Shown here in pieces: positions 25,400 through 45,985 of a stretch of 64,000 bases of DNA (its first letter is position 1; the number at the start of each line of letters is the position of its first letter). The notes under the pieces are model-generated. The model was not told the origin of the DNA, did not search any database, and worked only from the letters and a program-made list of their open reading frames with translations. This DNA comes from Bacteroidales bacterium (GTDB taxonomy: Bacteria; Bacteroidota; Bacteroidia; Bacteroidales; UBA932): contig JAFTMS010000008.1 of assembly GCA_017452265.1 (NCBI GenBank), positions 1 through 64,000 of the forward strand. The letters are read 5' to 3'. A program made the position numbers and the translations under genes.

Positions 25400-25495
25400 A
25401 CTACTAGATTTTAAAAATTCCAGATTGCATATTAGCAAGGCTCGGGCCAATTCCCTTTGACGGCATTCTTAAAATCCGGAGTATGTGATCTGACC

Positions 25496-26767
25496 TCAGT
25501 CCGCCAGTCCTTCAAGATAGCTGCGGAGGACAGGCCAGCTGTAGTATGGGCCTGTGAGGGTCTGGAGGGCAGGAATGACGGTTTCCTGTTCGTTATAGAG
25601 AAGCTTGACCAGGATTTCGCCGGCCTTGTTGCGGTAGAACACCATCTGGAGATTGGAGGCCATCGGTATCATGAACGAAGAATTCCAATGTTCATGGGCC
25701 TCGTAGGCGCTGTATTCCTTGTCCATGCCTTTGATGCCCATAGTGGTGACGAGCGGAAGAAGACCAGTGTCATGACCGAAGCGGAAGTCCGCCACGATGT
25801 CGCTTCCCGGTTCAAGAGCCTCATCCGCCTTTGCAACGATGTCCTCAAGAATCGGCACGGCGATTTCCGCCACCTGCTCCGCCATCTCGGCCGAATTGGC
25901 ATATCCTGCATAGAAATAGTCGTTGCGCATGATCCACTGGCCGAGCTGCTCCTCGAACGGGAAATACTTCATCATGTCAGGACGCACATCCGTATTCGGG
26001 CTGATGGCCGCCAGCATGTAGATGCTGCGGATGAACCTGTGCGGATTGCCGATCATCTTCTCCGCCTGTTCAGGATCCTTGAAGATACGTTCGAACATGA
26101 CATCAGGATTTACATGAACCGCCATCGAATCCTCGACAGCATTGTCGAACTTGTCAGCCGGCACATAGCCGTCGATATGCCGGCAGAGCAGGTCATAATA
26201 CTTTTCACCTGTCACATAAGAAAAATCCATCTTCGGGGCATGTTCAGCGAGTGCCGTATTGAAATACATCATGCTTATCATGCTGCGCTGGACCGTCGTG
26301 GAGGCATTGCGCACCTTCGTCCTGCCGTCCTTTGCGGAAAAGACCTCAGGGAAACGCTCATACAGTCTCGTGCCTATGGCCTCCTGCTCCTGTCCTCCTC
26401 TTGTCGTAAGCATGCCGTACATACCTTCATGCTCAGCATAAACCGCGAGGGCATCCGCATAAAGGGCCTTGCCCATCTCCGAAAGGAGTCCGAGGCTGTC
26501 GCAAAGGGCAAGTTCCGGCATACAGCGTCTGAAGAACCTGTCATTGGTATGGTAGCGTGAGCCGTGGCGGGAATAATGGCTTATATAAAAAGGCCTGAAG
26601 CCTTTCGGAGCCGGTGTCATATCGCTTTCCACAAACTCATAATAATGGTAATTGGAAGCCGCTCTGTCGGGATTCTCCCTGATCTGGTCAGCAAATTTCT
26701 GAAGCTGGGCCGTTGCCGGGCTCATGGCTGCAGCGGCAAGGCAAAGTGTAAGGAAAAACTTTTTCAT
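25496..26767 (-). CDS. Exported histidine-type phosphatase (MINPP/phytase-like)
   Basis: The 423-residue protein has a signal peptide (cleaved near ATAQ) and the histidine acid phosphatase motif YISHYSRHGSRYHTND near residue 65, with the catalytic His and Arg. The proton-donor motif appears as FGHDTGLLPL near 305. Several relatives are gut phytases that degrade inositol hexakisphosphate, so release of phosphate from inositol phosphates is plausible. It follows recQ by 14 bases, and the choloylglycine-hydrolase gene lies 96 bases downstream. Confidence 0.87.
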   Translation of the reverse strand: MKKFFLTLCLAAAAMSPATAQLQKFADQIRENPDRAASNYHYYEFVESDMTPAPKGFRPFYISHYSRHGSRYHTNDRFFRRCMPELALCDSLGLLSEMGKALYADALAVYAEHEGMYGMLTTRGGQEQEAIGTRLYERFPEVFSAKDGRTKVRNASTTVQRSMISMMYFNTALAEHAPKMDFSYVTGEKYYDLLCRHIDGYVPADKFDNAVEDSMAVHVNPDVMFERIFKDPEQAEKMIGNPHRFIRSIYMLAAISPNTDVRPDMMKYFPFEEQLGQWIMRNDYFYAGYANSAEMAEQVAEIAVPILEDIVAKADEALEPGSDIVADFRFGHDTGLLPLVTTMGIKGMDKEYSAYEAHEHWNSSFMIPMASNLQMVFYRNKAGEILVKLLYNEQETVIPALQTLTGPYYSWPVLRSYLEGLAD

Positions 26768-30526: not shown

Positions 30527-30541
30527 TCTGAATAATAAGAG

Positions 30542-30570
30542 GCTGACCTCACATGGTCAGCTTCTATTTT
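30542..30570 (+). terminator. Terminator of pckA
   Basis: GCTGACC (30542-30548) and GGTCAGC (30555-30561) form a stem with a 6-base loop, flanked by AAGAG/CTTCT and followed by ATTTT. A second imperfect palindrome (30571-30592) follows. Confidence 0.7.
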
Positions 30571-30718: not shown

Positions 30719-33607
30719 TTAAAGTGCAGAAACCTTTACGGTCTGCTGAAGTTTTGTGTCTTCTGAGGCGGCTGAGGCAGCGACGCTGATGCGGAATTCG
30801 CCCGGGTTGATGCGCCAGTCGTGGATATCGACATCGTAGAAGGCGAAGGCGGATGACGGGAGATGGATTGTCACCTTCTCGGACTTGCCTTTCTTTACGA
30901 ACACCTTCTCGAAGCCTTTGAGTTCCTTTGCAGGACGCAGGACGCAAGGATTCACTTCACCGACATATACCTGAGCCACTTCCGAAGCGTCGTACTTGCC
31001 GGTATTTGTAAGCGTAAACGTCACGTCAAAGCCGTCGGCAGCAGGGACTACTGCAAGATCCGAATATTCGAAAGAAGAGTATGTGAGGCCGTATCCGAAC
31101 GGATATGCAGGCTGCACACCGTCCTTTTCATAACCGCGATAGCCCATGAAGATGCCTTCCGAATAGGTCACATGCCTGTTTGTATGGCCGCGTTTTGTGA
31201 GCGGCTCGCCGCTGTAGTAGCTGTTCCATGTAGGATTGTCCTCCTGCTTTGCCTCAATCGACATAGGCAGACGGCCTGAAGGAGAGAATTCTCCGGCAAG
31301 CATACGCGCAATCGCCAGTCCGCCTTCCTGTCCCGGATACCAGCCCATCACAATGGCCGACACCTTGTCCTGCCATCTGCTCAGGTCGATTCCGCCGCCG
31401 GAATACACGACGACGATTACATTGTCATTGTGCGCCACAGCATATTCTATCATCTCGTCCTGCCCTTCCGGAAGCGAGAATGTCCTGTCGTGGTTCTCCC
31501 TCTCGGTCTTCTTGTCAAATCCTACAGAAACGACCACGGCAGAAGCGCCTTCAATCACCTTTCTGTTGGCGGCAGAATCATAATCTCCCTTGACAAGAGT
31601 CACCGGGAACTTGGATCCGAGCTGCTGCATGCCCTCATAAAGCGAAATCGAATAGAGGGGATCCACAGCACCGCTTCCGCCTCCGCAAGGGATAACCTCA
31701 GCGCGCGGTCCCATAAGGGCAATGGTGTTCTTCTTTCCAGGCTTGAGAGGAAGTGCCCCGTCGTTCTTGAGAAGGACGACAGATTCGCATGAAAGCCTGT
31801 AGGCAACCTCACGGGAATATGGATTGTCCTCAGGTATCGAGCTGTCCAGCTGAGGACGGTCAAGGAAGCCATAAGCGATCAGGGATGCGAGGATGGTCTC
31901 CACCTTTGCATCGATGTCCTTCTCGCTGATGACACCGCTGTCGAGAAGCGGCTTGAGAAGTTCGTAATTCATGCAGAAAGCCTTAGGCATTTCGATGTCA
32001 AGACCGCTTCTGACGCATCCGAGTGGCGAATATGTCGATGTCCAGTCCGACATCACAAAGCCCTCGAAGCCCCATTCGTCCTTGAGAGTCTCCTTGATGA
32101 GGTACTCGCTTTCCGCAGCATGGACATTGTTCACAAGGTTGTAGCTGGTCATCACCGAAGCCACGCCTGCATCCACCGCATTGCGGAAGGCCGGGAAATA
32201 TATCTCATTCATCGTACGTTCGTCAGCATCCGAGCTCACATGATGGCGGTCCCACTCCTGATTGTTGAGTGCAAAATGCTTGATCGTCGCCATCACACCC
32301 TGAGACTGTACGCCACGGATATACTGCTCCGAGGTCATGGAAGAAAGGAACGGATCCTCACCCATATACTCGAAGTTACGGCCGCACAGAGGGCTTCTGT
32401 AAATGTTCACACCAGGGCCGAGAAGGATGTGCACTCCCCTTGCGCGTGAATCCTGTCCGAGGGCGACACCCATTTCATAGACAGCATCCTTGTTCCATGA
32501 AGCCGCAGCAGCGACACCGCTTGCGAAGAGCGTGCTTCTTGTGTTGTTACGCACACCCTGAGGGCCGTCCGCCATCCTGATGAGAGGAATGCCAAGACGT
32601 TCTACCGGACGGATATAGAAGCCGTCCTCATTGGCCTCCACCTTCTTCGAGAGAGTCTTTCCGTCACTGCCGGCACCACCGATATAGGCAATCTTTTCCT
32701 CAAGAGTCATCCGGCTCACGAGTTCGGCAGCCCTCGCCCTATGCGCCCGTGTAACGTTTGCAAAATCAAGAACAGCACAGATAGGATAGTGGTCAGAAAC
32801 AAATTCCACTCCTTCATAGCTATCCTTTATGGTTTTGAATTCCAGCACCTTGAAGTCCGAGCAGAAGATATGGTCTATCATGAGGTCAGACTTGCCCCAG
32901 CCGTTATAAGTGCCGAGATTGTCGGTCACCGGAGCCACGACGCGTGCATCATCCATGATTTCCTTGATAGGATCGAAAATGGCTTCCGACGTCTCTGAAT
33001 TGAAGTCTGCCGTAAGTATCACCGGATATCCGTTCAGATTCATCTGAGCGATACGGTCACGGATCATGAGAAGCGAATTCTTCCTTGCCTCCTGACCCTT
33101 GTGGTCGAGATGTGTATTGAGATATATGAAATGCTTTCCTGTCGCGTCAACGGTGAACTCGGCCCAGGTCACAATCCTTCTATAAGATGCATCCCAGCCC
33201 TTCGAAGGGGTATCAGGAGTTTCCGAAAGCCAGAAAGTGCCTGACTGTACAGGAGTTACGACACCTTTCTTATAGTATATGTTCATAGCCTCGCCGCCTT
33301 CAGCTCCGTCACGTCCCACGCCGAGCACACCATAACCCGGAAGTGCATCAGAAATATATGAAATCTGATAGTCGAGAGCCTCCTGCACACCCATGACCGT
33401 AGGGTTTTCCGCTTCAAGAAGCGGCCGGATGGCCTTCTTTCTCAAATCCCAGGCATTAGGAGTGTCCTTGTCGGCCTTGCCCACCCTTACGTTGAATGAG
33501 ACGACCTTGATCTTGCCGTCAGCTTCCTCGGCAGGGCCGAAGCCCTTACCGAATCCGCTGAAAGCAAGGAGAGTCGAAACAACACACAAAAATATACGTT
33601 TCTTCAT
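30719..33607 (-). CDS. EEP-domain / GH3 beta-glucosidase fusion enzyme
   Basis: The 962-residue protein joins two enzymes. Residues about 30-285 are an endonuclease/exonuclease/phosphatase (EEP) domain with VQEALDY, LNTHLDHKG, ILTADFNSE and SDHYPI, the metal and catalytic motifs. From about 297 follows a GH3 hydrolase: RNFEYMGEDP-like motif, ATIKHFALNN, the catalytic Asp in GFVMSDWTS, then the beta-sandwich and a C-terminal FnIII-like domain. A signal peptide is present (MKKRIFLCVVSTLLAFSGFG) with no lipobox. The linker reads straight through. It ends the PUL operon and probably acts in the periplasm, cutting a glucoside and perhaps a phosphodiester in the same substrate; the latter is inference. 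Confidence 0.9.
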   Translation of the reverse strand: MKKRIFLCVVSTLLAFSGFGKGFGPAEEADGKIKVVSFNVRVGKADKDTPNAWDLRKKAIRPLLEAENPTVMGVQEALDYQISYISDALPGYGVLGVGRDGAEGGEAMNIYYKKGVVTPVQSGTFWLSETPDTPSKGWDASYRRIVTWAEFTVDATGKHFIYLNTHLDHKGQEARKNSLLMIRDRIAQMNLNGYPVILTADFNSETSEAIFDPIKEIMDDARVVAPVTDNLGTYNGWGKSDLMIDHIFCSDFKVLEFKTIKDSYEGVEFVSDHYPICAVLDFANVTRAHRARAAELVSRMTLEEKIAYIGGAGSDGKTLSKKVEANEDGFYIRPVERLGIPLIRMADGPQGVRNNTRSTLFASGVAAAASWNKDAVYEMGVALGQDSRARGVHILLGPGVNIYRSPLCGRNFEYMGEDPFLSSMTSEQYIRGVQSQGVMATIKHFALNNQEWDRHHVSSDADERTMNEIYFPAFRNAVDAGVASVMTSYNLVNNVHAAESEYLIKETLKDEWGFEGFVMSDWTSTYSPLGCVRSGLDIEMPKAFCMNYELLKPLLDSGVISEKDIDAKVETILASLIAYGFLDRPQLDSSIPEDNPYSREVAYRLSCESVVLLKNDGALPLKPGKKNTIALMGPRAEVIPCGGGSGAVDPLYSISLYEGMQQLGSKFPVTLVKGDYDSAANRKVIEGASAVVVSVGFDKKTERENHDRTFSLPEGQDEMIEYAVAHNDNVIVVVYSGGGIDLSRWQDKVSAIVMGWYPGQEGGLAIARMLAGEFSPSGRLPMSIEAKQEDNPTWNSYYSGEPLTKRGHTNRHVTYSEGIFMGYRGYEKDGVQPAYPFGYGLTYSSFEYSDLAVVPAADGFDVTFTLTNTGKYDASEVAQVYVGEVNPCVLRPAKELKGFEKVFVKKGKSEKVTIHLPSSAFAFYDVDIHDWRINPGEFRISVAASAASEDTKLQQTVKVSAL

Positions 33608-33618
33608 CCTTTTTAATG

Positions 33619-35742
33619 TTATTTGGTTACTGTAATGTCATCGATGAACCAGCGTGAGAACACAGCGTCAGCCGGGCTTGTGAACTCTATGCGGGTATCC
33701 GCTGCAGCTCCCTCGATCGTAAGACTGAAGTCCTTGAATTCCTCATGCGACAGGCCCTCTACGATCACGGAAGTCTGGCCGTTTATGGTTCCGCCGCCGA
33801 TAACATTCACGACACACTTGTCCACGTCAGGATCATTGGCATCAAGAAGAGTGGCACGCGCACCTTCCCTCCATGCAGCGGCAGTGAGGTAGTTCATGGC
33901 ACGGAAACTGAGCTTCAGAGTGCCGGAAGCACCGAGAGCCGGAGTCGTGAGAGAGCCTGGATTGTTCTTGAATCCTGCAATCTTCTGATATGAATTCACC
34001 CAGCCGATCTGAGCGTAGCCGTGGCGTGCCTTCACGTCTGTTGCCGTCATTCCGGCATAATCCGATGGAAGAACATCGCCTGCATAATTGAGCATAGAGC
34101 ATATCCTGTCACCCCAGAGATAGTCCGCGCCTCCGAGAAGGTCGTCGAAAGCCTGATGATACACAGCGTCAGCCGGCTTTGAAGTGCTGTATACAGGAGT
34201 TTCCCAGATTACGACTCCGCCATGGAGCTGTACATCCGAGCCCCAGCCTGTTGTAGTGGCCGAATCCGGACTCTGAGCCTTGCGGTTGCCGGTCGGCACA
34301 AACTTGATGTAAAGGACATGTTCTGCCGAAAGGTCTACGTTCTTAGGCTCAGCCGTCACGGTATAGTGATAGTACTGGGCAGGAGAAAGGACAACTTCTC
34401 CGACAGTCTCCCAGTTCTCGTCATCCGACGAAAGCATCACCTTCCAGTCCGCAATGCCTCCGTTGGTCGTGTAAAGGCCGAATGTGAGGTTGAAAGCTGC
34501 CGGAAGCGAGAAATCGTGAGGAACGGAAAGCTTGTAGAAGCACTCGCCGTAATAGTTCTCTCCAGCAGATTCCTCTGATACAAAGGACTTTGCAGGAATA
34601 TTGTCATTTCCGTCGGCATTAGACCAGAATGCCGTTGCACGTGTGTCACTGCTTGTTCTTCCGCAGAAATGAGCATGAAGCGAAACTCCGTTGTCGGCCA
34701 TTTCATAATAGTAGTTGTCGATGAAATGTGTCGCCTCGTCATATTTTCCCTGAACGGCTGTAAGATATTTGAGCGTATTGCCGGATCCGGCCGTCGCATT
34801 CAGCGAGAATATATACGGCAGTTCATCGATTCCCTTGAACCTCTGCTTCAATGTGCCGAAATCGTGGATAGTGTTGGAAGCAAAGTCATATGAAGACGTC
34901 GATGTAAGCGTACAGTCCTCATCGGCAAGATAAGCAGTCGCCGTGAGTCCTGATGCCACAGTACCAGGGATCATGCATATGCTGTACTCTCCTGCCTCAA
35001 GCGGAGTGAGGCCGACGATAGAGCCGTCTTCACCATACACAGGATCTCCCAATGTAATCTCTGAATATGTCGCAGCGCCTTCGTATGCGGCGGCAACAGG
35101 AGCATCTCCCGAGCAGTCGATGGCGAATTCACCTGCTATTGCCTCGCCGCCGTTTGCCTTGAGGACAATCTTCTGCACCTTTCCGTTGAGCGCAGAAGGC
35201 ACGGTGACCTTCACGACCGAAAAGATGTTTCTGAACACATATTCCGCCGTAAGGTCTGAGCCCTTGGCGACAGCAATCGTATTGGAATGGTCATATCCGC
35301 CCTTCACGGCAGCCTGCATGTTGCTCAGGACAGCCTTCACGGAAGAAGCCGCATAATCACATTCCGAAGCCGCCGAATACGGATGAACCATTATATAGCT
35401 GACAGCCGCTGTGTCTATTCCGGCAGTCTTGAAACGTACCTCAGCGCCCTCACCGTCGGCAATTGCCACATGAGTGCCCTTTCCGTCGAACACGGCGATA
35501 TAGTCACCTGTGCTCCACATCACACCCTCTGAAGTCATCACAGACTTCACCTTGAGGTTCTGGGTGGTCTCCGGCTCAGTTTCCGGAGCACCGACCGGCT
35601 CCCACCGTGCAGAGAAAGTCGTGCTGACGACAAGCGGTTCGCTAACGTCCTCATAGACCTTCTCCACCTGAGGGACTTCCTTTGTACACGACATGACCGC
35701 AACCGCAGCCAGTGCCGTAAAAGCATATAATCTGTTTTTCAT
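33619..35742 (-). CDS. Surface lipoprotein: fimbrillin-like N-terminus plus PUL-specific C-terminal domains
   Basis: The 707-residue protein has a lipobox (VAVMSC). Residues about 30-300 resemble a fimbrillin/Mfa-like domain (GVMWSTGDYIAVFDGKG, then FKTAGIDTAAVSYIMVHPYS). From about residue 306 (ELPYIFSL) to the end it matches the C-terminal half of the lipoprotein encoded at 36680, including AKSFVSEE, YAQIGWV and FTSPADAVFSRWFIDD. The last part looks like a jelly-roll anchor or glycan-binding domain. It likely binds the target polymer at the cell surface. The start overlaps the preceding stop codon (TAATG). Confidence 0.75.
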   Translation of the reverse strand: MKNRLYAFTALAAVAVMSCTKEVPQVEKVYEDVSEPLVVSTTFSARWEPVGAPETEPETTQNLKVKSVMTSEGVMWSTGDYIAVFDGKGTHVAIADGEGAEVRFKTAGIDTAAVSYIMVHPYSAASECDYAASSVKAVLSNMQAAVKGGYDHSNTIAVAKGSDLTAEYVFRNIFSVVKVTVPSALNGKVQKIVLKANGGEAIAGEFAIDCSGDAPVAAAYEGAATYSEITLGDPVYGEDGSIVGLTPLEAGEYSICMIPGTVASGLTATAYLADEDCTLTSTSSYDFASNTIHDFGTLKQRFKGIDELPYIFSLNATAGSGNTLKYLTAVQGKYDEATHFIDNYYYEMADNGVSLHAHFCGRTSSDTRATAFWSNADGNDNIPAKSFVSEESAGENYYGECFYKLSVPHDFSLPAAFNLTFGLYTTNGGIADWKVMLSSDDENWETVGEVVLSPAQYYHYTVTAEPKNVDLSAEHVLYIKFVPTGNRKAQSPDSATTTGWGSDVQLHGGVVIWETPVYSTSKPADAVYHQAFDDLLGGADYLWGDRICSMLNYAGDVLPSDYAGMTATDVKARHGYAQIGWVNSYQKIAGFKNNPGSLTTPALGASGTLKLSFRAMNYLTAAAWREGARATLLDANDPDVDKCVVNVIGGGTINGQTSVIVEGLSHEEFKDFSLTIEGAAADTRIEFTSPADAVFSRWFIDDITVTK

Positions 35743-36665
35743 TAATCTTTGAATTCAAGAAGTGCATAGATAGGATAGTGGTCGGAAACGTACCTCACGC
35801 CCTCGTACGAGTCGACAATGGTCTTGTAACGGAGGATGTTGAAGTTGCGTACATACACATGGTCGATAACCGAACCTGTGCCTCCCCAGGCATTGTATGT
35901 CTTCTGGGTGTCGGTCGTGGCAGCCTCTTCGCGGGCATTGTAAAGCTTCGCCTTCGTGAATACGTCAAACATCGAATGTGATGAATCGGCGTTGAAGTCC
36001 GCAGTCACAATCACAGGATATCCTTCCGGATTCAGTTCGTTTATCTTTTCCACGATAAGGGCCATGGACTGCTGCTTGGCAACAGCACCCTTGTGGTCAA
36101 TGTGCGTATTCAGATAGAAGAACTTCTGGCCGCCGGCATTCATAGTGAACACCGCCCATGTCGCGGTCCTTCTGTAACCGGCGTCCCAGCCGATTGAAGG
36201 GGTATCGGGAGTCTCTGAAAGCCAGAATGTTCCGTGCTCACCCATGGTCACGACATCCTTCTTCCAGAATATGCTCATATGCTCGCCGCCGTTCGCACCA
36301 TCGTCACGTCCCACTCCATAGCATTCATATTCAGGAAGCGCGTCCTTGATGAACTTCACCTGTTCCTCACGTGCTTCCTGCACACCGAACACAGTCGGAT
36401 TCTCCTTTGTCAGGAGCGGCTTCACGGCTGCACTGCGCACCGTCCAGTTGCGTGTCGCATGGTTTGCATCACCTGTAGACGTGCGTACATTGAAGGAAAT
36501 CACCTTTATCTGGTTCTCCCCCACTTCATCAGGGACGATCTCCACACTCGTCGAACCGCTTCCCGATTCTTCGCCCGGTCCGGGCACGAAATGCGAGTTG
36601 TCCAAAGTCTTGCCGCATGAGATTGCGGCAAGAGCTACAGTCAGTATTGAAAGTGTACGTTTCAT
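35742..36665 (-). CDS. Endonuclease/exonuclease/phosphatase (EEP) family lipoprotein
   Basis: The 307-residue protein has a lipobox (LAAISCGK) and a complete EEP domain: IKVISFNVRTS, FGVQEAREEQ with the catalytic Glu, LNTHIDHKG, VIVTADFNAD and SDHYPIYALLEF. It is clearly a paralog of the EEP half of the GH3 fusion two genes downstream (both share GTFWLSETPDTPS-GWDA). EEP lipoproteins of this kind are phosphodiesterases or phosphatases rather than DNases when secreted, though this is not proven. It sits in the middle of the PUL operon. Confidence 0.88.
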   Translation of the reverse strand: MKRTLSILTVALAAISCGKTLDNSHFVPGPGEESGSGSTSVEIVPDEVGENQIKVISFNVRTSTGDANHATRNWTVRSAAVKPLLTKENPTVFGVQEAREEQVKFIKDALPEYECYGVGRDDGANGGEHMSIFWKKDVVTMGEHGTFWLSETPDTPSIGWDAGYRRTATWAVFTMNAGGQKFFYLNTHIDHKGAVAKQQSMALIVEKINELNPEGYPVIVTADFNADSSHSMFDVFTKAKLYNAREEAATTDTQKTYNAWGGTGSVIDHVYVRNFNILRYKTIVDSYEGVRYVSDHYPIYALLEFKD

Positions 36666-36679
36666 ACTATATACATTGT

Positions 36680-38935
36680 CTATTTCACTAAAATGTTATC
36701 GATGAACCAGCGTGTGTACACTGCGTCGGCCGGGCTTGTGAACTTGATCCGGGTGTCTGCAGTCGCATTCTCCACCTTGAAGTCGAACTCCTTCCATGAG
36801 CTTGCGGAAAGTCCGGTGAATACGGCTGAAGCCGCTCCGGATATGGTTCCTCCGCCGATCACCTCCACGACAAAGCTTGTCACGTCAGGATTCTGGACAT
36901 CGAGGATGACCTGTCCGTTTGCATTCACTATGGTATTGTTGTTCTTCCTGTCAGCATTGGTCCTGTATCCCATTGCACTGAAGCTGACTTCGAGGCTGCC
37001 CTCACGGCCGAGCTTCGGAGATACAAGCGAACCGATGTTGTTTTCCATCTTGTAGTTGCCCCATGCAGCACGCTGGAACACGTCCACCCAGCCTATCTGG
37101 GCATATCCCGGTCTCTGAGCCACATTCTCGCCCGACATGCCGTTCTTCTGCTCCTCTGTCCATGAGTCGATGAGCGAGCCGTTGAGATTGTCCATCATTC
37201 CGAGCTTTGTGCCGAGGGTATAGTCGGTTCCTTCTGTCAGACCGTCGAACGGCTCGAACCAGAGGGCGCCTGCCGGAGCGGCAGTCTCCTGGGGCATGGC
37301 AGACGAGACATAGATACCGGACACAAGACGGGCATCCTTGTTCCAAGGGCCGCCGGAGCCCACCTGCTCAAGTCCGAAAGGAGAGACCTTGATGTAAAGG
37401 GTTTCCTCAGACCTGAACTCGATTACAGAATCGAATGTCACCGTACCATAGTGGAAGAGGTCCTTTTCAGGGACGGATATATACGTAGACTCGTCAGCGG
37501 CATCGAAGCCGTACCAGTTCTGCATATCCTTTGAATACTCCACCTTCCAGTTCTTGAAGGTATCCTGAAGGTAAAGTCCCACAGTGACGCTGAATCTCTG
37601 CGGCAGATCCATGGCAAGAGGGCATGAGAGCATGTAATATGTCTCGCCTTCCATTCCTGCGGCAGCAAGATATTCCTTCGAGACGAAAGACTTTGAAGGA
37701 GCATTGTCGTAGCCGTACTTGTTTGCCCAGACAAGCGTTCCACGTGTCTGGCCTGAAGTCTGGCCTGCAGAATGGGAATTAAGCATGATAGAAGGCTTTG
37801 CCACATCGTAATACCAGATGTCACGGGTGAATGTCGCAGCATCATATCCCTGGTCCTTTCCTGCAATGTAAGCGTAAGAGTTGTTGTCTCCGCCGTCTTC
37901 GCAGTAAAGCGAGAACATGTACGGAAGTTCTGAGAGGGCGTTGATTTCCAGACGGATGTCGCCGAAAGCGATATCATCCACAGTTGTAGGCATGATGGCA
38001 GCATCCGGAGTTGCGATACCGCTGAGAACACCGCCTCCGTTCGGGCAGGCCTGCTCTGCGAAAGTCGCCGTTTCGAACACCTGCATGTTGAAGAAGAGGA
38101 ATTCCGTCGTCACAAGACTCGGAGAAGAGCCGTATGTGCTGCCGAGAAGGGCTTCTGAAATCTGCACCTCAGGCACAGACACATACATCGCCTCATAATC
38201 ACCGCTTTCAAGGGCAGCAACATCGATCATGAGAGGTTCGATGGCTACAGGAGTGATGCCTGAAGACACAGCCGGTTCTGAAGCGTATATGGCAAGATAA
38301 CCGTTCTCATTGCGCTTCACTGTGACTCCGTTGAGAGCCACCACGGCCTCTTCTCCCTGTACAAACGATACCGGAGACGGAGACTCGACAAGAATCGCAG
38401 AATGAGGGTTCACGAAGTCGTCCTGGATTATGAAGGCATTCTCATAAAAGTTTCCTTCAGCAGCATTCGTGGTCACGATTCCCTTCACCTTGAAGTCCGC
38501 TTCAGGGAACATATACTCACCGTCTGCCGCAAGAGCACGTACGGTGCTGATGCTCAGGCATCCGTCGTCACCGGCTCCGAGCTGGCGGATTTCAATCTCA
38601 TGAAGGAACTGTCCGTCAGCGCTTTCGATGATGAGGGTACAGCTTCTGTTGCCGCCTGTATTCTCGGCAAAGTTCACCTTGAGGGAAGTGGCTCCGACAA
38701 ACTCCTTCACGGAAGAGCTCACCCATTCGTTGCTGGTGAAGACCGCATTCCATGAAGTGTTGCTGTCCACCTCTATGCTGTAGGCGGATGCAGAGGCCGG
38801 CGAGACCAGCACCTCCGTATCGACCGTCAGATAGGAGACAGGCACATAACCGGCCTCCTCACGGCAGCCGGACAGACAAAGGATGCCTGCGACCGCTGCC
38901 ATTACATATGATATAAGTCTTTTCATGAATTCCAT
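36680..38935 (-). CDS. PUL surface lipoprotein with BACON and DUF5689-like domains
   Basis: The 751-residue protein has a lipobox (LCLSGCREE). Residues about 35-120 form a BACON-type Ig domain (SNTSWNAVFTSNEWVSSS, GGNRSCTLIIES); about 130-330 resemble a DUF5689 OB-fold region (FKVKGIVTTNAAEGNFYENAF, the NPHSAILVES turn). From about 335 (ELPYMFSL) it parallels the protein at 33619. Role: likely glycan capture at the surface beside SusC/SusD. Met 38935 or 38926 could be the start; the second is the first residue of the signal peptide proper. Confidence 0.78.
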   Translation of the reverse strand: MEFMKRLISYVMAAVAGILCLSGCREEAGYVPVSYLTVDTEVLVSPASASAYSIEVDSNTSWNAVFTSNEWVSSSVKEFVGATSLKVNFAENTGGNRSCTLIIESADGQFLHEIEIRQLGAGDDGCLSISTVRALAADGEYMFPEADFKVKGIVTTNAAEGNFYENAFIIQDDFVNPHSAILVESPSPVSFVQGEEAVVALNGVTVKRNENGYLAIYASEPAVSSGITPVAIEPLMIDVAALESGDYEAMYVSVPEVQISEALLGSTYGSSPSLVTTEFLFFNMQVFETATFAEQACPNGGGVLSGIATPDAAIMPTTVDDIAFGDIRLEINALSELPYMFSLYCEDGGDNNSYAYIAGKDQGYDAATFTRDIWYYDVAKPSIMLNSHSAGQTSGQTRGTLVWANKYGYDNAPSKSFVSKEYLAAAGMEGETYYMLSCPLAMDLPQRFSVTVGLYLQDTFKNWKVEYSKDMQNWYGFDAADESTYISVPEKDLFHYGTVTFDSVIEFRSEETLYIKVSPFGLEQVGSGGPWNKDARLVSGIYVSSAMPQETAAPAGALWFEPFDGLTEGTDYTLGTKLGMMDNLNGSLIDSWTEEQKNGMSGENVAQRPGYAQIGWVDVFQRAAWGNYKMENNIGSLVSPKLGREGSLEVSFSAMGYRTNADRKNNNTIVNANGQVILDVQNPDVTSFVVEVIGGGTISGAASAVFTGLSASSWKEFDFKVENATADTRIKFTSPADAVYTRWFIDNILVK

Positions 38936-38938
38936 GTA

Positions 38939-40675
38939 TTAAAAGTCTGTTCCGTCCTTCCATTCAGGATTCTGCTTCACGACTCCGCCGGTAAGCACGA
39001 TGTCGTCAGTCGGGATAGGATAGAGATAGTCCCTTCCCTCCTGCCATGTCCTTTCGATGGTTCCGTGGCAGACGATGTTTCCGTGAGTGCCTTCGGTAAG
39101 TGCAAGGTCCTTCATGCTTGAATATACGACACCCGACACAGCTTCCGGAGCATCTCCGTTATAGATGCAGAAGTCCACCTTTCCGTCGGCATCGAGGTCA
39201 TAATCTCCGGCACCCTCGAAGTACATGCCGATGAAGCGGCGTTCGAAGCGCTTTCCCTCCTTCCAGCGCATGATGTCCCAGTATCTGTGACCTTCGCTCA
39301 TAAGCTCAACCGTCCTCTCGCGGCGAATCTCGAGAATCACGCCCTGGTTGCTGCCCTGTACGTTGGCATAACCTGTCTCGGCAGAAGTGAGGTACGGATC
39401 CGGATCGGCGTTTGCCGCAGCCATGTTAAGGGAAGCGACGCCGGCGCGGCTGCGGAGAAGATTCACGGTCTTGTCAAGGTCGGACTGGGTGAGAGTGCCA
39501 AGCTCAGCCTTTGCCTCGGCATATGCAAGATAGACCTCTGCCGTACGGAATACCGGAAGGTCGGTCTCTGATGAACCGTAAGCATCGTACTTGCTCTCAC
39601 CGACATACTTGATGATCTGGTATCCGGTCATGGTTGCAGCCATGTCAGGTGCAGTCGTCGCTGTCTCGCCCACACGGACATAACCCGGAGTGCAGATGGT
39701 CTGTGAAAGACGGCCGTCACGGTTCTTCGCTTCCTCGACGAATGAAAGCTCATTGTATCCTTCCCTGTCGGTGAAGCGGCTTCCGTCCTTCATAAGGTAC
39801 ATGTTCACGACATCCTTCAGCATTCCGGACTTACCCATTGATGTGGCAGTGAAATAGTTGTTTACGTCGTGAGTGAGGCCAAGACCTGCATTGTACGCAC
39901 GTGCAAGTATGATTTCCTGCGAATTTGCATTCACGGAACTGAAGAGGTCGCGATACGGAGTCTTTCCTGCCGTATAAAGGCTGTACGGAGCATTGGCGAT
40001 GAATTCCTCAGCCGCCTTCACAGCTTCATTGAGGCATTCCTCCCAGTCGCCGAGGCCATGATACTTGCGGAAAGTTCCTTCAAAAAGGAAGATGCGGGCC
40101 TTCAGAGCGAGGGCTGTCCATCTGTTCACGCGGTATACGCTCTTGTCTGACGGAAGATACTTGATGGCGAAGTCGATGTCCTCAAGCATATGGGCCATCA
40201 CCACCTTGCGGTCGTCGCGTCCCTTGTAGAGTTCTTCGGAATCGGCAGCAATCGTATGGTCCACCCACGGAACGTCACCGTATCTCTTCACCTTCTCAAA
40301 GTAGAAGTATGCTCTGAAGAACTTCGCGAGGCCGTCGTATTCGTTGCGCACGTTGATGTTCTCGCACTGCTCCGAGTGCTCGAGGAAGAAGTTGATGTCG
40401 CGGAGCTTGTCCCAGTTCCAGCTGCCTGAAGTGGAAGGAACGGTACGCAGTCCGGAAACCTCATCTGACAAAGTGTTCTTCACGATTACGTCAGCGGTCT
40501 CGTTATAGATGCTTGTTGCAGGCAGAAGCGTGTAGAAATCGTTCGTATAAAGTTCGCATTCGGTCTCCGACTTGAAGAACGACTCAGGCGTCAGCCTGTC
40601 CTGAGGATCCCTTACAAGAAGATCCTCACAGCCGCAGAGAAGCAGAAGCGGCAATATGTATAATATCTTTTTCAT
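38939..40675 (-). CDS. SusD/RagB family nutrient-binding outer-membrane lipoprotein
   Basis: The 578-residue protein has a signal peptide with lipobox LLLLCGCED, then RDPQDRLTPESFFKSETE, the conserved SusD N-terminal motif. TPR-like helices (about 80-300) and the C-terminal SusD domain with LRSRAGVASL, RRERTVELMSEGHRYWDIMRW follow. It caps the SusC channel and binds the glycan. Gene spacing of 15 bases after susC shows an operon. Confidence 0.95.
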   Translation of the reverse strand: MKKILYILPLLLLCGCEDLLVRDPQDRLTPESFFKSETECELYTNDFYTLLPATSIYNETADVIVKNTLSDEVSGLRTVPSTSGSWNWDKLRDINFFLEHSEQCENINVRNEYDGLAKFFRAYFYFEKVKRYGDVPWVDHTIAADSEELYKGRDDRKVVMAHMLEDIDFAIKYLPSDKSVYRVNRWTALALKARIFLFEGTFRKYHGLGDWEECLNEAVKAAEEFIANAPYSLYTAGKTPYRDLFSSVNANSQEIILARAYNAGLGLTHDVNNYFTATSMGKSGMLKDVVNMYLMKDGSRFTDREGYNELSFVEEAKNRDGRLSQTICTPGYVRVGETATTAPDMAATMTGYQIIKYVGESKYDAYGSSETDLPVFRTAEVYLAYAEAKAELGTLTQSDLDKTVNLLRSRAGVASLNMAAANADPDPYLTSAETGYANVQGSNQGVILEIRRERTVELMSEGHRYWDIMRWKEGKRFERRFIGMYFEGAGDYDLDADGKVDFCIYNGDAPEAVSGVVYSSMKDLALTEGTHGNIVCHGTIERTWQEGRDYLYPIPTDDIVLTGGVVKQNPEWKDGTDF

Positions 40676-40690
40676 AATTCAGTCCCTCCG

Positions 40691-43600
40691 TTAGAAATCA
40701 AGTGTCACACCGAATGAGAATGTCTTGTACCAAGGATATACGTTACCCTTCTTGTCGGAGCTTGCCGAAATCTGCTCAGGGTCGATGTACTTGCTGTGTA
40801 CGGCGCTCCATGTCCAGAGGTTCTCACCGCTGAAGTATACGCGCACATTGGAGATGCCGGCCTTCATGAGGACCTTCTGAGGAAGCGTATAACCCACAGT
40901 GAGGTTCTTCAGACGCAGATATGCAAGGTTCTGGAGATAGCGGTCGTTGGTATAGTAAAGCGAACCGGCATTGAGGGCCGAGTAGCCGCGTGCCCTCGGG
41001 AAATATGCATCCGTATTTGTCTCAGTCCATACGTCAGACATGAAGTCTCTTGCCACGAATGTCGCATAAGGACGTGAATACGGTCCCCAGAAGCGGAGGT
41101 TGTCATTTCCCGGATACCAGTCCATATGGCCGATTCCCTGGAAGAACGCGGCGAAGTCGAAGCCGAAGAAGTTGAAGCCTGCATTGAAGCCGTAGCTGAA
41201 ACGAGGCTGTGAGTTACCGATGATCTCACGGTCACCGTGATTTTCAAGTGTGCTTTCACCGAATGAGAGCACGCCGTCGCCGTCAAGGTCGAGGTACTTC
41301 ATGTCACCTCCCCTTACACCGCGGCCGTATTCACCGATCTGAGTGTAGTACTCCTTGCAGACATTCGACATGTCCACCTTTGCTGCGTATGCAGCCGCCT
41401 CTTCATCGTTTGCGAAAAGGCCGTCCACACGGAAGCCCCAGATTTCGCCGAGACGCTTGCCTTCATACGGCTCGTTGATGAGGCCTGAAGGGTTGTCGCA
41501 CTTGGTGTAGAAAGCCACGTAGTCGGCAAGAGTAGCACCTACGTTATAGTCGAACCTGTGCTCGCCGATGTTGAAGGAGTCCCTCCACTGGAGCGAAAGT
41601 TCGAAACCGCGTGTACGCATGTCGTTTGCGTTCACCTGAGGTTCGGATGCTCCGTAGATTGAAGGGAGCTTCTTGCCCTCTGTGAGGATACCCTTGGTGT
41701 CGCGGATGTAGAAGTCGCTTTCAAGAGTAAGCCTGTCGCTGAGGAAGCCCATGTCGAGACCGACGTTGTATGAAGTCACGGTCTCCCATGTTCCTGTCGA
41801 TACAGGATCGTCCACTGTCGCATGTCCTGCAAGTGCAGAGCCATCGAAGGTATAGCTCATGTTGCCCTTCGTGTTCACGTTCTGATAATAGTCGTAGTAA
41901 CCGATGTTCTGGTTTCCGAGCGAACCGTATGAAAGTCTGAGCTTGAAGTTGCTGAAAGCTGTCGAAATCGGCTCCCAGAACGGTTCTGAGCTCACTCTCC
42001 ACGCAGCAGAAACTGAAGGGAAGAATCCCCACTTGTTATGCACAGGGAAACGTGACGAACCGTCGTAACGGCCGTTGAACTCGATCATGTAGCGTGACTT
42101 GTAGTCGTATGTCACCCTTCCGAAGATACCCATTATGGCATATTCTGAAATACCGCCGTTGAGCGTAGACACCTCGCCTGTAGCAAGGTTGAAGTCTGAA
42201 AGTTCCTCCGAAAGGAGGTCGTTGCGCGTCACGGTGAGGTCCTTGTAGTGACGGGCCTGATAGTTGAAGCCGGCTGTCGCCGTGAAATGGTGGGCGTCGT
42301 TCCAGGTGTTGTCATATGAGAGGAACGCATTGGCAGTGTAGTTGTTCTGCTCGTAGACCACGTCCGAGAAGCTGTCAGGGAATGAGCTTGTAGACTCCTG
42401 AAGCATTCCTCCAGGATACTGCGAATACTCGACGAATGTGCTTCTGTACTGGTTTCTGAGGTATCCGAACTTATATGAGAAGTCGGCGTTGAACGTAAGT
42501 CCCTTGCAGATCTGGGCCTTGAGGTCGAAGGTAGTCGTCACCTCTGTTGTAGACTTGAATCCGCCGCTCTTTCCCTTCTGCATCATGGCGTTGTATCCGT
42601 CCATGATATAATGTCCTGAGCTGTAAGTCATTGATGTATGCGAAACAGCTGTTCCGTCAGGATTCACAGGGACGAATGAAGCAAGGGCATGGAGAGTAGG
42701 CTTACGGAAGTTGTTGTACTCGGAATCGTATCCGGTGAATGAATATTTCGACTTGAAGAACTTCGTGTTGTTGCCGAGAGTCAGCCAAGGGCGGAGCTTG
42801 ATGGACACCTTCGAGCGTACGTTGTATGAATCGAAATAGTCCGGATGGATTCTGTTGATACCCTTCTGACCGTAATAACGGGCACTCACGAGATATGTCA
42901 CGTTCTTCGAGCCACCAGTCACGCTCACGTTGTAGTCCTGCGTCGGACGTGTCTCGTCATAAAGATAATTGTACCAGTCGAAGTTGCCGAGATATACATA
43001 CGAAAGCTTTCCGTCACGCATTTCCGTGAGTACCCACGGGCGCTCAGGATTCTCCGTCACATCGTTGCGGCGCTCCCAGAGCCTCTGGTAATCGTAATCG
43101 GTGTAGCTTGTATAAGGCACGTTGTTGGCCGTCATGTTGAACATGTCCGCAATCTTTGCGGAATAGTATCCTCTTGTCTCGTAATCGGTTGACACTGAAT
43201 TAGAAGAGAAAGAGTATCTTGCATCCACAGACACCTTCGGAGCCTGATCGTTCTTACCGCTCTTGGTGGTCACGAGGATCACACCGTATGCGGCCTGCGA
43301 ACCATAGATTGCTGACGAAGATGCGTCCTTGAGCACAGAGATGCTCGCGATGTCGTTTGAGTTGATACGGTCGAGATACGTCTCCACACCGTCCACGAGG
43401 ATGAGCGGAGAACCGCCGTTCGGAGATGTGTTACCACGGATATTGTAGCTTGAACCTGCACCAGGCTGGCCGGAGCTCTGCGTGATGTTAAGGTTCGGAA
43501 TCACACCCTGAAGAGCCTGTCCCACACTTGCCACCGGCCTGTCCTTGAGCTGTTCCTCGGAAACGGCAGCGACAGCACCGGACATGTTCACCTTCTTCTG

Positions 43601-44236
43601 CACACCGTAACCCACTACAATTGACTCGGAAAGAAGTTCGGTGTCGTTCTTGAGCGTCACCTCGAAGTTTGAGCGTGTTCCCACAGGGAATGACTCGTCG
43701 ACGCAGCCAATGAACGAGAACGTGATCACATCCGACGTCTCCGGTGCACCGGGAAGAAGGATGCTGAAGTTTCCGTCGAGGTCGGCAGTCGCTCCGTAAA
43801 GCTTTCCGCCATAGCGGATGGATGCAGCAGCACCGATGAGAGGCTCGCCGTTCGAATCACGGATGATACCTTTCAGCTCCACAGGCCCCTTTGCCGGAGC
43901 GGTAGCCTGCTCAGCCTGCGGCTCATCCACATAAAGGAAGATCTTCCTGTTTTCAAATCTGCATCTGAAACCGGGAAGTATCTGCGAGATGACCTGCTCG
44001 ATGGGCAGATTATCCGCAGAGACAGAGACGATTTTCTTCGTGTCCAGATCGGCATTGTTGTAGAAGAACGCATAATCAGTGCTCTTCTCAATGCTCTTCA
44101 GGACATTCAGGACAGTCACGTCCTTGAGGTCGAGGGTGACCTTTGCCCCCCCCGACTGCGCCATAAGGACATGACTTCCCGACAGCATGCACAGCATAAG
44201 CGCAATGCCTGTCAAGAACAGTTTTGTCTTTTGCAT
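40691..44236 (-). CDS. SusC/RagA family TonB-dependent outer-membrane transporter with STN domain
   Basis: The 1181-residue protein has a signal peptide (cleaved near VLMAQ), a Secretin/TonB N-terminal (STN) domain at about 30-105 (KVTLDLKDVTVLNVLKSIEK), a carboxypeptidase-regulatory-like domain at about 122-205, and a plug from about 210 (SESIVVGYGVQKK) to 330. The rest is a 22-strand barrel ending in FGVTLDF. The STN domain is the part that talks to FecR anti-sigma proteins, which fits the fecR gene directly upstream. It imports an oligosaccharide with SusD. Confidence 0.95.
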   Translation of the reverse strand: MQKTKLFLTGIALMLCMLSGSHVLMAQSGGAKVTLDLKDVTVLNVLKSIEKSTDYAFFYNNADLDTKKIVSVSADNLPIEQVISQILPGFRCRFENRKIFLYVDEPQAEQATAPAKGPVELKGIIRDSNGEPLIGAAASIRYGGKLYGATADLDGNFSILLPGAPETSDVITFSFIGCVDESFPVGTRSNFEVTLKNDTELLSESIVVGYGVQKKVNMSGAVAAVSEEQLKDRPVASVGQALQGVIPNLNITQSSGQPGAGSSYNIRGNTSPNGGSPLILVDGVETYLDRINSNDIASISVLKDASSSAIYGSQAAYGVILVTTKSGKNDQAPKVSVDARYSFSSNSVSTDYETRGYYSAKIADMFNMTANNVPYTSYTDYDYQRLWERRNDVTENPERPWVLTEMRDGKLSYVYLGNFDWYNYLYDETRPTQDYNVSVTGGSKNVTYLVSARYYGQKGINRIHPDYFDSYNVRSKVSIKLRPWLTLGNNTKFFKSKYSFTGYDSEYNNFRKPTLHALASFVPVNPDGTAVSHTSMTYSSGHYIMDGYNAMMQKGKSGGFKSTTEVTTTFDLKAQICKGLTFNADFSYKFGYLRNQYRSTFVEYSQYPGGMLQESTSSFPDSFSDVVYEQNNYTANAFLSYDNTWNDAHHFTATAGFNYQARHYKDLTVTRNDLLSEELSDFNLATGEVSTLNGGISEYAIMGIFGRVTYDYKSRYMIEFNGRYDGSSRFPVHNKWGFFPSVSAAWRVSSEPFWEPISTAFSNFKLRLSYGSLGNQNIGYYDYYQNVNTKGNMSYTFDGSALAGHATVDDPVSTGTWETVTSYNVGLDMGFLSDRLTLESDFYIRDTKGILTEGKKLPSIYGASEPQVNANDMRTRGFELSLQWRDSFNIGEHRFDYNVGATLADYVAFYTKCDNPSGLINEPYEGKRLGEIWGFRVDGLFANDEEAAAYAAKVDMSNVCKEYYTQIGEYGRGVRGGDMKYLDLDGDGVLSFGESTLENHGDREIIGNSQPRFSYGFNAGFNFFGFDFAAFFQGIGHMDWYPGNDNLRFWGPYSRPYATFVARDFMSDVWTETNTDAYFPRARGYSALNAGSLYYTNDRYLQNLAYLRLKNLTVGYTLPQKVLMKAGISNVRVYFSGENLWTWSAVHSKYIDPEQISASSDKKGNVYPWYKTFSFGVTLDF

Positions 44237-44387: not shown

Positions 44388-45362
44388 TTAAAGTGAAATC
44401 CTCACGTCGCCTTCTTCATCAAAAGTGTAGGAAACAGAGGCTAAAAGTTCCAATGCTTCGAGGATTTCTGTCAGAGGTTCCTGACGGACGGTCATGGACA
44501 GATGCATGGTTTTCGCAGCCTCCGGATCTTCGCAAGTTATGTCCACACAGTACCAGTGCTCAAGGCTCTGGAGGATGTCGTAGAGGGATCTGTCTGTGAA
44601 TTCAAGCTTGCCGCCTATCCATGCCACATGGTCGGAAGCCACGACATCGTATCTGTTCAAGGCACGGTTCGCCGGATTGTACGTGAGAGCCTGATCCGGC
44701 TTCAGAAGCACATCGTCACAGCCCTCAATACAGGCACGTACACTGCCCTGGGCAAGATATACGGTCACCGGCTCATCCTCGTATGCCGACAGGGTGAAAC
44801 GCGTTCCAAGCACTTCTATGTCCATATCCTGACTTTCCACTATGAAAGGTCTGTTCTTGTCCTTCGCAACGTCGAAATATCCTTCACCCTCAAGACGCAC
44901 CTTCCTTTTCCTTCCGTCGAAACCTTTTGCATAATAAAGGCGGCTGTCCTTGTTGAGCCAGACCTTCGAGCCGTCCGGCAGACGGAATTCGCCTTTGGAT
45001 GCGGATGAAGATGCAAGGCAGACCTCAGCCTGCGGAGCCGTGAAGAACTGGATGGCAGCGATTATGGTCATACAGGCAGCCACCGTGGATGTAAACCACA
45101 GGAGGGCGTTTCTGCGGCGTGGAGTTGTGCCGACGACTGCCCTGGACTTTCTTTCCGCTTCGGCTATCACATCCATCGGCTCTTTCAGGACATCAAGTCC
45201 TTCACTTCCGTCAATCGTCTCCCAGATTTCCTTCAGGGCTGCATCCTTTTCCTCGAACGCATCCGTATCAACGAGCCATCTCTCGAAAGTGTCCTTCACC
45301 TCTGTAGGAACATCCTTTTTCCTATATGAATCAATTATTTCCCTTATAGTATTTTTTGTCAT
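44388..45362 (-). CDS. FecR-type anti-sigma factor
   Basis: From Met 45362 (MTKNTIREIIDSYR) the protein is 324 residues. It has an N-terminal sigma-binding region, one transmembrane helix at about 82-102 (LLWFTSTVAACMTIIAAIQF), the periplasmic FecR domain (KGEFRLPDGSKVWLNKDS, GEGYFDVAKDKNRPF), and a C-terminal DUF4974 that contacts the STN domain of SusC. The start has AGGAAAAG upstream; earlier in-frame Mets (45422, 45395) lie within or ahead of the promoter and are rejected. Confidence 0.9.
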   Translation of the reverse strand: MTKNTIREIIDSYRKKDVPTEVKDTFERWLVDTDAFEEKDAALKEIWETIDGSEGLDVLKEPMDVIAEAERKSRAVVGTTPRRRNALLWFTSTVAACMTIIAAIQFFTAPQAEVCLASSSASKGEFRLPDGSKVWLNKDSRLYYAKGFDGRKRKVRLEGEGYFDVAKDKNRPFIVESQDMDIEVLGTRFTLSAYEDEPVTVYLAQGSVRACIEGCDDVLLKPDQALTYNPANRALNRYDVVASDHVAWIGGKLEFTDRSLYDILQSLEHWYCVDITCEDPEAAKTMHLSMTVRQEPLTEILEALELLASVSYTFDEEGDVRISL

Positions 45363-45393
45363 CTTTTCCTGTATGTCGTATAAAATTGCAGTC

Positions 45394-45422
45394 ATAAGAC
45401 GGACAAACCGCCCTTGACACAC
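45394..45422 (-). promoter_or_regulatory. ECF-type promoter before fecR
   Basis: GTGTGT, 14 bases, CCGTCTTAT on the minus strand, followed about 30 bases later by the fecR start. It shares 21 of 29 bases with the element before susC, so both are probably read by the sigma factor encoded just upstream. Confidence 0.65.
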
Positions 45423-45436
45423 AAAAAAACTTCAAT

Positions 45437-45985
45437 TTATTTATAGCTTTCCGCCAGCATCGTCCGTATGTCGGCCAAAGCAAGGGTTATATGGTTCTCG
45501 ACCGTCCTTATGTTTATACCGACGGATTCGGCTATTTCAGCATTCGTAAGCCCTTTGTAACGGCTCAGGGTGAATATCCTCTTACGTTGTTCCGGCATAC
45601 GGCTGACGGCTTTGAATATGAGCATCTGAAGCTCGTCAGCGGCGACCTTCTCGTCGATATAGGACTCGAATTCGTCCTGACACAGAAGCTGACGGGAAGC
45701 ATAGCGGCTCCTTATCGTATCGCTCGTGAACTTGTCCATGACAGCATTGCGCGCCATCCTGTAAAGATACGACGAAAACGAATCCACCTTCGAGATGATT
45801 TCACGCCGCAGCCATACCTTCATGAAGATGTCGTGCGTTATGTCCTTGGCTGTCTGACTGTCCTTCACAAGGGACTCGACAAAGGAATAGCATCTGCCGG
45901 CAAACTCATTGTAAAGCGCGGCAAACGCATCCCTGCTGCCTCGTCCGAGGGCTTCCAGAAGGCTTATTTCCTGCTCGCGTGTCAT
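45437..45985 (-). CDS. ECF RNA polymerase sigma factor (sigma-70 family)
   Basis: The 182-residue protein has region 2 (FAALYNEFAGRCYSFVESLV, DITHDIFMKVWLRRE) and region 4 (MPEQRKRIFTLSRYKGLTNAEIAESVGINIRTVENHITLAL) with a helix-turn-helix, and no regions 1 or 3. It is the PUL regulator released when SusC signals to FecR. Its ATG overlaps the stop of the upstream peptidase gene (ATGA), so the two are co-translated. Confidence 0.95.
   Translation of the reverse strand: MTREQEISLLEALGRGSRDAFAALYNEFAGRCYSFVESLVKDSQTAKDITHDIFMKVWLRREIISKVDSFSSYLYRMARNAVMDKFTSDTIRSRYASRQLLCQDEFESYIDEKVAADELQMLIFKAVSRMPEQRKRIFTLSRYKGLTNAEIAESVGINIRTVENHITLALADIRTMLAESYK

Follow-up and report, generated by a model that had tools for sequence, protein, structure and literature searches.

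The DNA analysed here is a stretch of 64,000 nucleotides from contig JAFTMS010000008.1 of a Bacteroidales bacterium (hereafter the window), in which one gene, P0001, encodes an endonuclease/exonuclease/phosphatase (EEP) domain fused to a glycoside hydrolase family 3 (GH3) enzyme. The existence of this fusion as one protein was confirmed. Its open reading frame (ORF 30719-33607, minus strand) runs from ATG to stop with zero internal stops, and a gene split by a frameshift, which was looked for, could therefore be rejected. Pfam recognised each of its parts: PF03372 at 40.0 bits against a cut-off of 24.5, with positions 1-225 of the 225-position profile covered, and PF00933, PF01915 and PF14310 at 145.4, 173.6 and 79.7 bits against curated cut-offs of 27, 31 and 25, respectively (Table 1). 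Nine EEP residues (N39, E76, H166, D168, D201, N203, D245, D272 and H273), which we take to be the metal-binding and catalytic ones, were invariant across seven aligned EEP domains, namely both EEPs of the window and those of genomes G636, G271, G361, G347 and G037. The GH3 motifs SDW (D521) and RENHDR (E704) aligned with those of the solved beta-glucosidases 7ms2 and 8j9f, and presumably supply the nucleophile and the acid/base, respectively. An earlier note on this DNA had described a single 962-residue polypeptide with intact motifs of both enzymes, and the ORF, the Pfam matches and the alignments bore this out.

The EEP half of P0001 runs in frame straight into the mature GH3; residue ~284 is the usual start of GH3-only matches among the matches listed in the whole-protein search. 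Read by eye, the N-terminus resembles a signal peptide that lacks a lipobox. The EEP part has a G+C content of 0.49, the GH3 part one of 0.54 and two neighbouring genes 0.52-0.53, values that do not tip the balance either way. A 14-residue insert after the GH3 YIGG motif (window ~32633-32674, residues ~312-325) was not seen in any of eight relatives compared (8/8), a fusion from genome G185 included. The source genome yielded 10 GH3, 8 EEP and 5 GDPD matches. One of these is a stand-alone GH3 on contig C15 that shares 81% identity with the fused GH3, adjoins a GDSL esterase gene and sits in a polysaccharide utilization locus (PUL); two EEP matches lie ~11-13 kb away on C15. The genome thus contains two linkages of EEP and GH3, one of them as separate genes. 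Facing the C15 PUL is a gene for an NAGPA-type phosphodiester glycosidase (L080 12006-12959) that adjoins its own SusD, SusC and FecR genes. The fragmentary state of the genome (45 contigs, 84.49% complete) and the similar stand-alone GH3 within it would be in keeping with two genes having been joined in the assembly. We consider misassembly extremely unlikely because the join is in frame at domain ends and comparable fusions occur in other genomes (G185 and G636, described below); in addition, the fused GH3 is only ~80% identical to the other copy.

P0001 closes a PUL that comprises an ECF sigma factor, a FecR-type anti-sigma factor, SusC, SusD, a DUF5689 protein, a stand-alone EEP (P0002), a putative lipoprotein and the fusion. 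The genes from SusC to the fusion (30719-44236) are all on the minus strand with gaps of at most 15 bases. Adjacent SusC and SusD genes and co-directional enzymes stand together with a sigma/anti-sigma regulator. P0002 lies two genes upstream of the fusion and is 55% identical to the fused EEP. This second EEP gene (35742-36665), the SusC/SusD PUL that ends in the fusion and the 81%-identical GH3 elsewhere in the genome had not been part of the earlier note.

To place the fusion among its relatives, whole P0001 and its EEP domain were searched in 400 genomes of the genus, giving matches in 397 and 333 genomes, respectively. Among the matches listed, only the window's own contained both domains in the order EEP-GH3. 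A query spanning the junction matched 357 of 390 genus genomes and, again among the matches listed, the window alone crosses the junction. The EEP-GH3 fusion is thus rare in this genus sample, and the idea that it is unusual held to that extent. GH3 matches in G029, G361 and G359 that start before the junction were taken as chance extensions; the GH3 N-termini of G361 and G029 have a signal-peptide-like stretch without an EEP motif. The genus matches of GH3 with longer frames were also considered as possible EEP fusions, and at none of the 11 places mapped by similarity, five of which were scanned with Pfam, was an EEP present in the GH3 chain.

EEP and GH3 were found joined in two further genomes. 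G185 carries the same PUL type (SusD 68% identical), and its terminal gene encodes a 957-aa protein in which the order is reversed, with GH3 at residues 39-700 and EEP at 703-957; the separate EEP protein of G185 is distant from that of the window (36% over 47 residues). An order-level search of 295 genomes matched 112 at E<=1e-30. Eight long-frame EEP matches of the order were fetched and seven scanned with Pfam, and one of them proved to be an EEP-GH3 protein, of 1031 aa, from a genome of another family (G636), with a GH3 that is 28% identical to that of the window. The neighbouring gene in G636 encodes a GDPD-GH16 fusion and is followed by SusD and SusC. In the EEP tree, the fused EEP of the window stands among PUL EEPs, and that of G185 groups with two EEPs of G135. 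Approximately unbiased (AU) tests, made on a tree with long-branched rows (G636 among them) and with clades picked by fusion state, rejected single clades of the fused EEPs of the window and G185 (p 4e-8) and of the window and G636 (p 0.0023); a clade of the window's fused EEP and P0002 was borderline (p 0.052). As the fused EEPs are rejected as one clade, their EEP sides appear to have been joined separately.

The two enzymes also occur as separate genes in related PULs. Among the matches listed, the stand-alone EEPs closest to the fused one (57-62% identity) belong to like-built PULs of G271, G310, G053, G368, G075 and G029. In G368, G075 and G029, the regulator end of the same PUL type is occupied by a separate GH3 gene, whereas in G361 this gene lies past the downstream side of the EEP and shares its orientation; in G271 the EEP and the GH3 are on two contigs, each with part of such a PUL. 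In G368 and G075, the genes between the two ends are GH3, sigma factor, FecR, SusC, SusD, DUF5689 and EEP, with no endoglycanase among the ORFs of at least 100 aa in this span, which is what the gene accounting covers, genes outside it not being profiled. We defined 29 orthologous PULs by a SusD identity of at least 59% and mapped 28 of them, the window included; G366, cut by a contig end, was excluded. Two types of EEP query were used, and at least one of them found an EEP in the fetched stretch of 27 of the 28, the exception being G072; some PULs, such as that of G121, carry the more distant EEP type only. True EEP genes were sometimes masked by a longer antisense frame (in G053 and on contig C15), and search matches and tblastn were used there. 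An EEP search of the genome contig collection gave 11 loci (L069-L079). GH3 was found in 15 of the 28 mapped PULs, 12 of them by tblastn over 26 places, for which the window was taken from 20 to 55 kb, and the other three (G264, G135 and G341) in later stretches. If 10 GH3 genes, the number in the source genome, were scattered at random over each genome, 12 of 26 would have a P of 1.2e-6 with 25-kb stretches and of 3e-5 with 35-kb ones, which speaks for a link between the two enzymes, although the lack of independence among related PULs makes these figures look stronger than they are.

With respect to function, four solved chains matched the fused EEP at E<=10 (3mpr, 4c1r, 3g6s and 3l1w). The best two for both EEPs of the window were 3mpr and 4c1r, with E values for 4c1r of 6e-40 for the fused EEP and 1.5e-47 for P0002. 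The sole functional name among the four is that of 4c1r, mannosyl-6-phosphatase, and none of the four titles names a nuclease or a sphingomyelinase. We take 3mpr and 4c1r both to be BT3783 of B. thetaiotaomicron, which presumably acts in a yeast-mannan PUL. Both align with the two EEPs over most of the domain; 4c1r differs in being a single-domain protein of ~290 aa, whereas here one EEP is fused to GH3 and the PUL has two. Yeast mannan was considered as a substrate because 4c1r is a near solved EEP, and was set aside, there being no mannosidase family among the Pfam matches of the PUL proteins. The closest solved GH3s are beta-glucosidases. The barrel, C-terminal and Fn3-like regions and the catalytic motifs of the BglB-type enzymes 7ms2 and 2x40 align over most of the enzyme; their chains, of 755 and 721 aa, leave no room for an EEP, and the P0001 GH3 has its 14-residue insert.

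Given the repeated joining of the two enzymes, the best reading of these sequences is that EEP and GH3 share a phosphate-bearing substrate. The earlier note had likewise assigned both activities to one substrate, which gains support from the PULs that the two enzymes share and from their fusion in either order, the EEP parts not forming one clade. Its more specific suggestions fared less well: the near solved EEP carries the name of a monoesterase rather than pointing to the cutting of a diester, and no finding singled out a glucosyl-phosphate lipid. Our best guess for the substrate would be a phosphate-bearing glucan, and the leading candidate, a lead and not a result, a glycerophosphoryl-decorated beta-glucan oligosaccharide. 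The latter would fit because GDPD recurs as a fusion partner or neighbour (in G636, in G264 and in the EEP-GDPD fusions) and because the NAGPA gene lies near the C15 GH3. The GDPD gene of G264 adjoins GH3, and in G226 the GH3 is adjoined by an ORF with the same length and start as that GDPD gene; EEP-GDPD fusions were recognised by Pfam in G347, G384, G090 and G216 and by similarity in G207, G143, G276 and G398. A short substrate would also fit, given that no endoglycanase lies between GH3 and EEP in G368 and G075.

We give about even weight to a scheme in which P0001 is a periplasmic enzyme of two activities and phosphate removal by its EEP lets its GH3 trim an imported phospho-beta-glucoside; cell location, activities, step order and substrate are all inferred. 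SusC and SusD would import a short beta-glucosidic oligosaccharide bearing phosphate, and P0002, probably located at the surface, would take off phosphate groups first. The fused EEP domain would then remove phosphate, acting either on its own as a phosphatase or once a separate phosphodiesterase has done its part, and the fused GH3 domain would cut glucose from the exposed end. Phosphate removal would have to come first because an exo-glycosidase could not cut while the terminal sugar is phosphorylated.

Several observations weigh against a shared phosphate-bearing beta-glucoside. The window's own PUL contains no GDPD by Pfam or tblastn, and the P0001 GH3 reached no NCBIfam equivalog cut-off (best NF041610, 460.1 bits versus 1300), so that its specificity is not fixed. 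For the GH3 parts, the AU test did not reject one origin of the window and G185 (p 0.168). No GH3 was found in the fetched stretch of 13 of the 28 mapped PULs; a contig end cuts six of these (G034, G121, G205, G295, G185:C33 and G010) and G165 is covered over 19 kb only, and the other six (G310, G053, G247, G072 and two places in G032) lacked one in the ~26-35 kb fetched. The chance figure given above counts related PULs as independent, which they are not. Related PULs hold further glycosidases, for instance Melibiase_2 alongside a histidine phosphatase (G072) and GH2 alongside a GtaA-type protein (G341), and the targets may therefore differ among them. Fusion itself need not mean one substrate, since the genus fuses PUL enzymes often: Pfam found GH43-GH3, GH3-AXE1, BNR-GH3, GH3 with PA14 and GH3-PA14-GH2 as well as GH78-EEP, Glug-EEP and EEP-GDPD. 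These many fusions, the absence of a linker, as a simple deletion could leave, and the GH3-less PULs would all suit an incidental event in a join-prone lineage, in which a deletion joined neighbouring PUL genes and the uncoupled domains act on different parts of a substrate or on different substrates. We regard such an origin as fairly unlikely because EEP and GH3 are joined in three fusions, with two different orders, and a single PUL type also carries them as separate genes.

Readings with other substrates must also be weighed. Teichoic acid also fits the phosphate side, and the substrate could be a piece of a Gram-positive envelope polymer, such as a glycosylated (lipo)teichoic acid or a beta-glucosyl glycolipid core, in place of a glucan. 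The various combinations of EEP, GDPD, metallophosphoesterase, GDSL esterase and glycosidases in related PULs are consistent with this, as is the ability of the glycerophosphodiesterase GlpQ to distinguish phosphoglycerol teichoic acids, described in an excerpt of PMC7086022. The fusion of GDPD to GH16 in G636 instead suggests a beta-glucan, and no amidase or peptidoglycan enzyme was among the Pfam matches, the ORFs of related PULs having been scanned in part only; we judge an envelope polymer unlikely. The EEPs could alternatively be nucleases of a PUL that feeds on nucleic acid, with the GH3 taking sugar off modified nucleosides or riding along. Also unfavourable to a phosphorylated glycan are two reports known to us in part: RA0C_RS04920, a DUF5689/choice-of-anchor-J protein, is treated as one of those that Riemerella cannot do without in natural transformation, its DNA binding being a speculative model of that paper (PMC8459023), and 576 CAZyme-less susC/D loci hold phosphodiesterases, with nucleic acids suggested as their target (PMC6499787). 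P0002 matched the nuclease model MnuA weakly (25.1 bits, cut-off 185), and the C-terminal part of the 33619-35742 protein weakly matched a type IX secretion system (T9SS) DNase model (42.9 bits versus a cut-off of 260). The sugar phosphatase title of the near solved EEP, with no matched chain titled as a nuclease, and the recurrence of GH3 with EEP argue in the other direction, and a nucleic acid substrate seems quite unlikely to us.

Turning to the remainder of the locus, the 707-aa protein (33619..35742) gave no match in a Pfam search, and its C-terminal part resembles that of DUF5689 proteins. The ECF sigma factor ORF (45440..45985) is 56.5, 58.8 and 65.5% identical to the ORF at the same position in three related PULs. 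Beyond the fusion lie genes for phosphoenolpyruvate carboxykinase (PEPCK) and RecQ, both named from their sequences. A hairpin resembling a terminator lies between PEPCK and the PUL end; the consensus that picked it out found 11 such hairpins, compared with 12.5 expected in shuffles. A histidine phosphatase gene (PF00328, window 25496-26767, minus strand) has a 30%-identical counterpart in the related PUL of G072 (L148), where it adjoins a Melibiase_2 gene. Next comes a gene for a protein of the choloylglycine hydrolase family (PF02275, 204.2 bits, window 24317-25450, minus strand), whose score reaches the NCBIfam equivalog cut-off of neither bile salt hydrolase nor penicillin V amidase. It had suggested ceramide or another lipid as a substrate, an idea that was dropped because the histidine phosphatase, RecQ and PEPCK genes separate it from the PUL.

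Other arrangements of these enzymes were seen in passing. PULs of G255 (L143+L144) and G264 (L199+L200) have two SusC/D sets, three EEPs, a GDSL esterase and a GH3, and the ~900-aa protein there is made up of a ~600-aa N-terminal part and a C-terminal EEP; by Pfam, that of G255 also has TIG and DUF5689 proteins. A GH78-type rhamnosidase with a C-terminal EEP is encoded at L092 6943-9453 (G037, Pfam), adjoining metallophosphoesterase and Melibiase_2 genes, and at L169 2451-4961 (G005, 99% similarity). Metallophosphoesterase-EEP fusions occur in other families of the order (L161 4156-5940 in G580 and L162 5930-7681 in G519). In two PULs of the window's type, those of G075 (L083 6755-10282) and G029 (L084 8974-12508), the SusC gene is divided between two ORFs.

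Table 1. Positions of P0001, its domains and the surrounding features in the window, with EEP-GDPD fusion loci of the genus
Feature	Position	Strand	Remarks
Terminator-like hairpin	30538..30565	+	between PEPCK and PUL end; consensus match only
EEP-GH3 fusion P0001	30719..33607	-	962 aa, probably secreted
Fn3-like domain PF14310	30770..30982	-	residues 876-946
GH3 C-terminal domain PF01915 (Glyco_hydro_3_C)	31139..31780	-	residues 610-823; acid/base candidate E704
GH3 N-terminal barrel PF00933 (Glyco_hydro_3)	31889..32605	-	residues 335-573; nucleophile candidate D521
Domain junction	32740..32775	-	...AVLDFA followed by NVTRAHRARAAELV...; practically no linker
EEP domain PF03372 (Exo_endo_phos)	32789..33502	-	residues 36-273, Pfam
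707-aa protein	33619..35742	-	lipoprotein by N-terminus reading; paralogues in related PULs
Stand-alone EEP P0002	35742..36665	-	307 aa, lipoprotein by N-terminus reading
DUF5689 protein	36680..38935	-	751 aa, candidate surface binding protein, Pfam
SusD homologue	38939..40675	-	Pfam
SusC homologue	40691..44236	-	TIGR04056, 831.9 bits, cut-off 368.25
FecR-type anti-sigma factor	44388..45422	-	Pfam; listed GTG probably upstream of true start
ECF sigma factor	45440..45985	-	similarity; ends approximate
EEP-GDPD fusions, eight genus genomes	L093, L095, L165-L168, L170, L171		

P0001 is a variant of the multicatalytic PUL enzymes, in an otherwise recognisable PUL. It shares with enzymes such as CE15-GH8, as far as excerpts of PMC8417218 describe them, the presence of two catalytic domains in one chain, one of them a glycoside hydrolase, and differs from CE15-GH8 in that the partner domain is an EEP, which is phosphatase-like. 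Osmoregulated periplasmic glucans (OPG) offer a comparison on the substrate side. Those of E. coli have a degree of polymerization of 5-12, with phosphoglycerol, succinate and phosphoethanolamine as possible substituents (PMC10514313, in excerpt). By analogy, such a make-up would suit an EEP or GDPD, an esterase and a beta-glucosidase, given that degrading these glucans would call for enzymes that remove phosphate, deacylate and cleave beta-glucosides. No beta-1,2-glucanase family was among the Pfam matches of the scanned proteins, none having been searched for by name. Elsewhere in the source genome there are five GDPD matches, and among the related PULs those of G636 and G264 contain a GDPD. 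A broader proposal would be that a PUL lineage of the Bacteroidota is dedicated to glycerophosphoryl-decorated beta-glucans such as OPG and takes up their carbon and phosphate together, with EEP, GDPD, GH3 and GH16 repeatedly fused in various orders to hand the stripped sugar end to a glycosidase; we hold this to be rather unlikely. Neither an EEP-GH3 fusion nor a PUL devoted to phosphoglycerol glucans or to teichoic acids was described in excerpts of the open-licence literature.

EEPs of this type are frequent, as the matches in 333 of the 400 genus genomes attest. The fusion of one of them to a beta-glucosidase narrows the search to phosphate-bearing beta-glucosides and provides a single protein on which to test them. 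If a shared phosphate-bearing substrate is the right reading, Bacteroidota would feed on phosphorylated glycans and release phosphate, to our knowledge a little-studied part of PUL biology.

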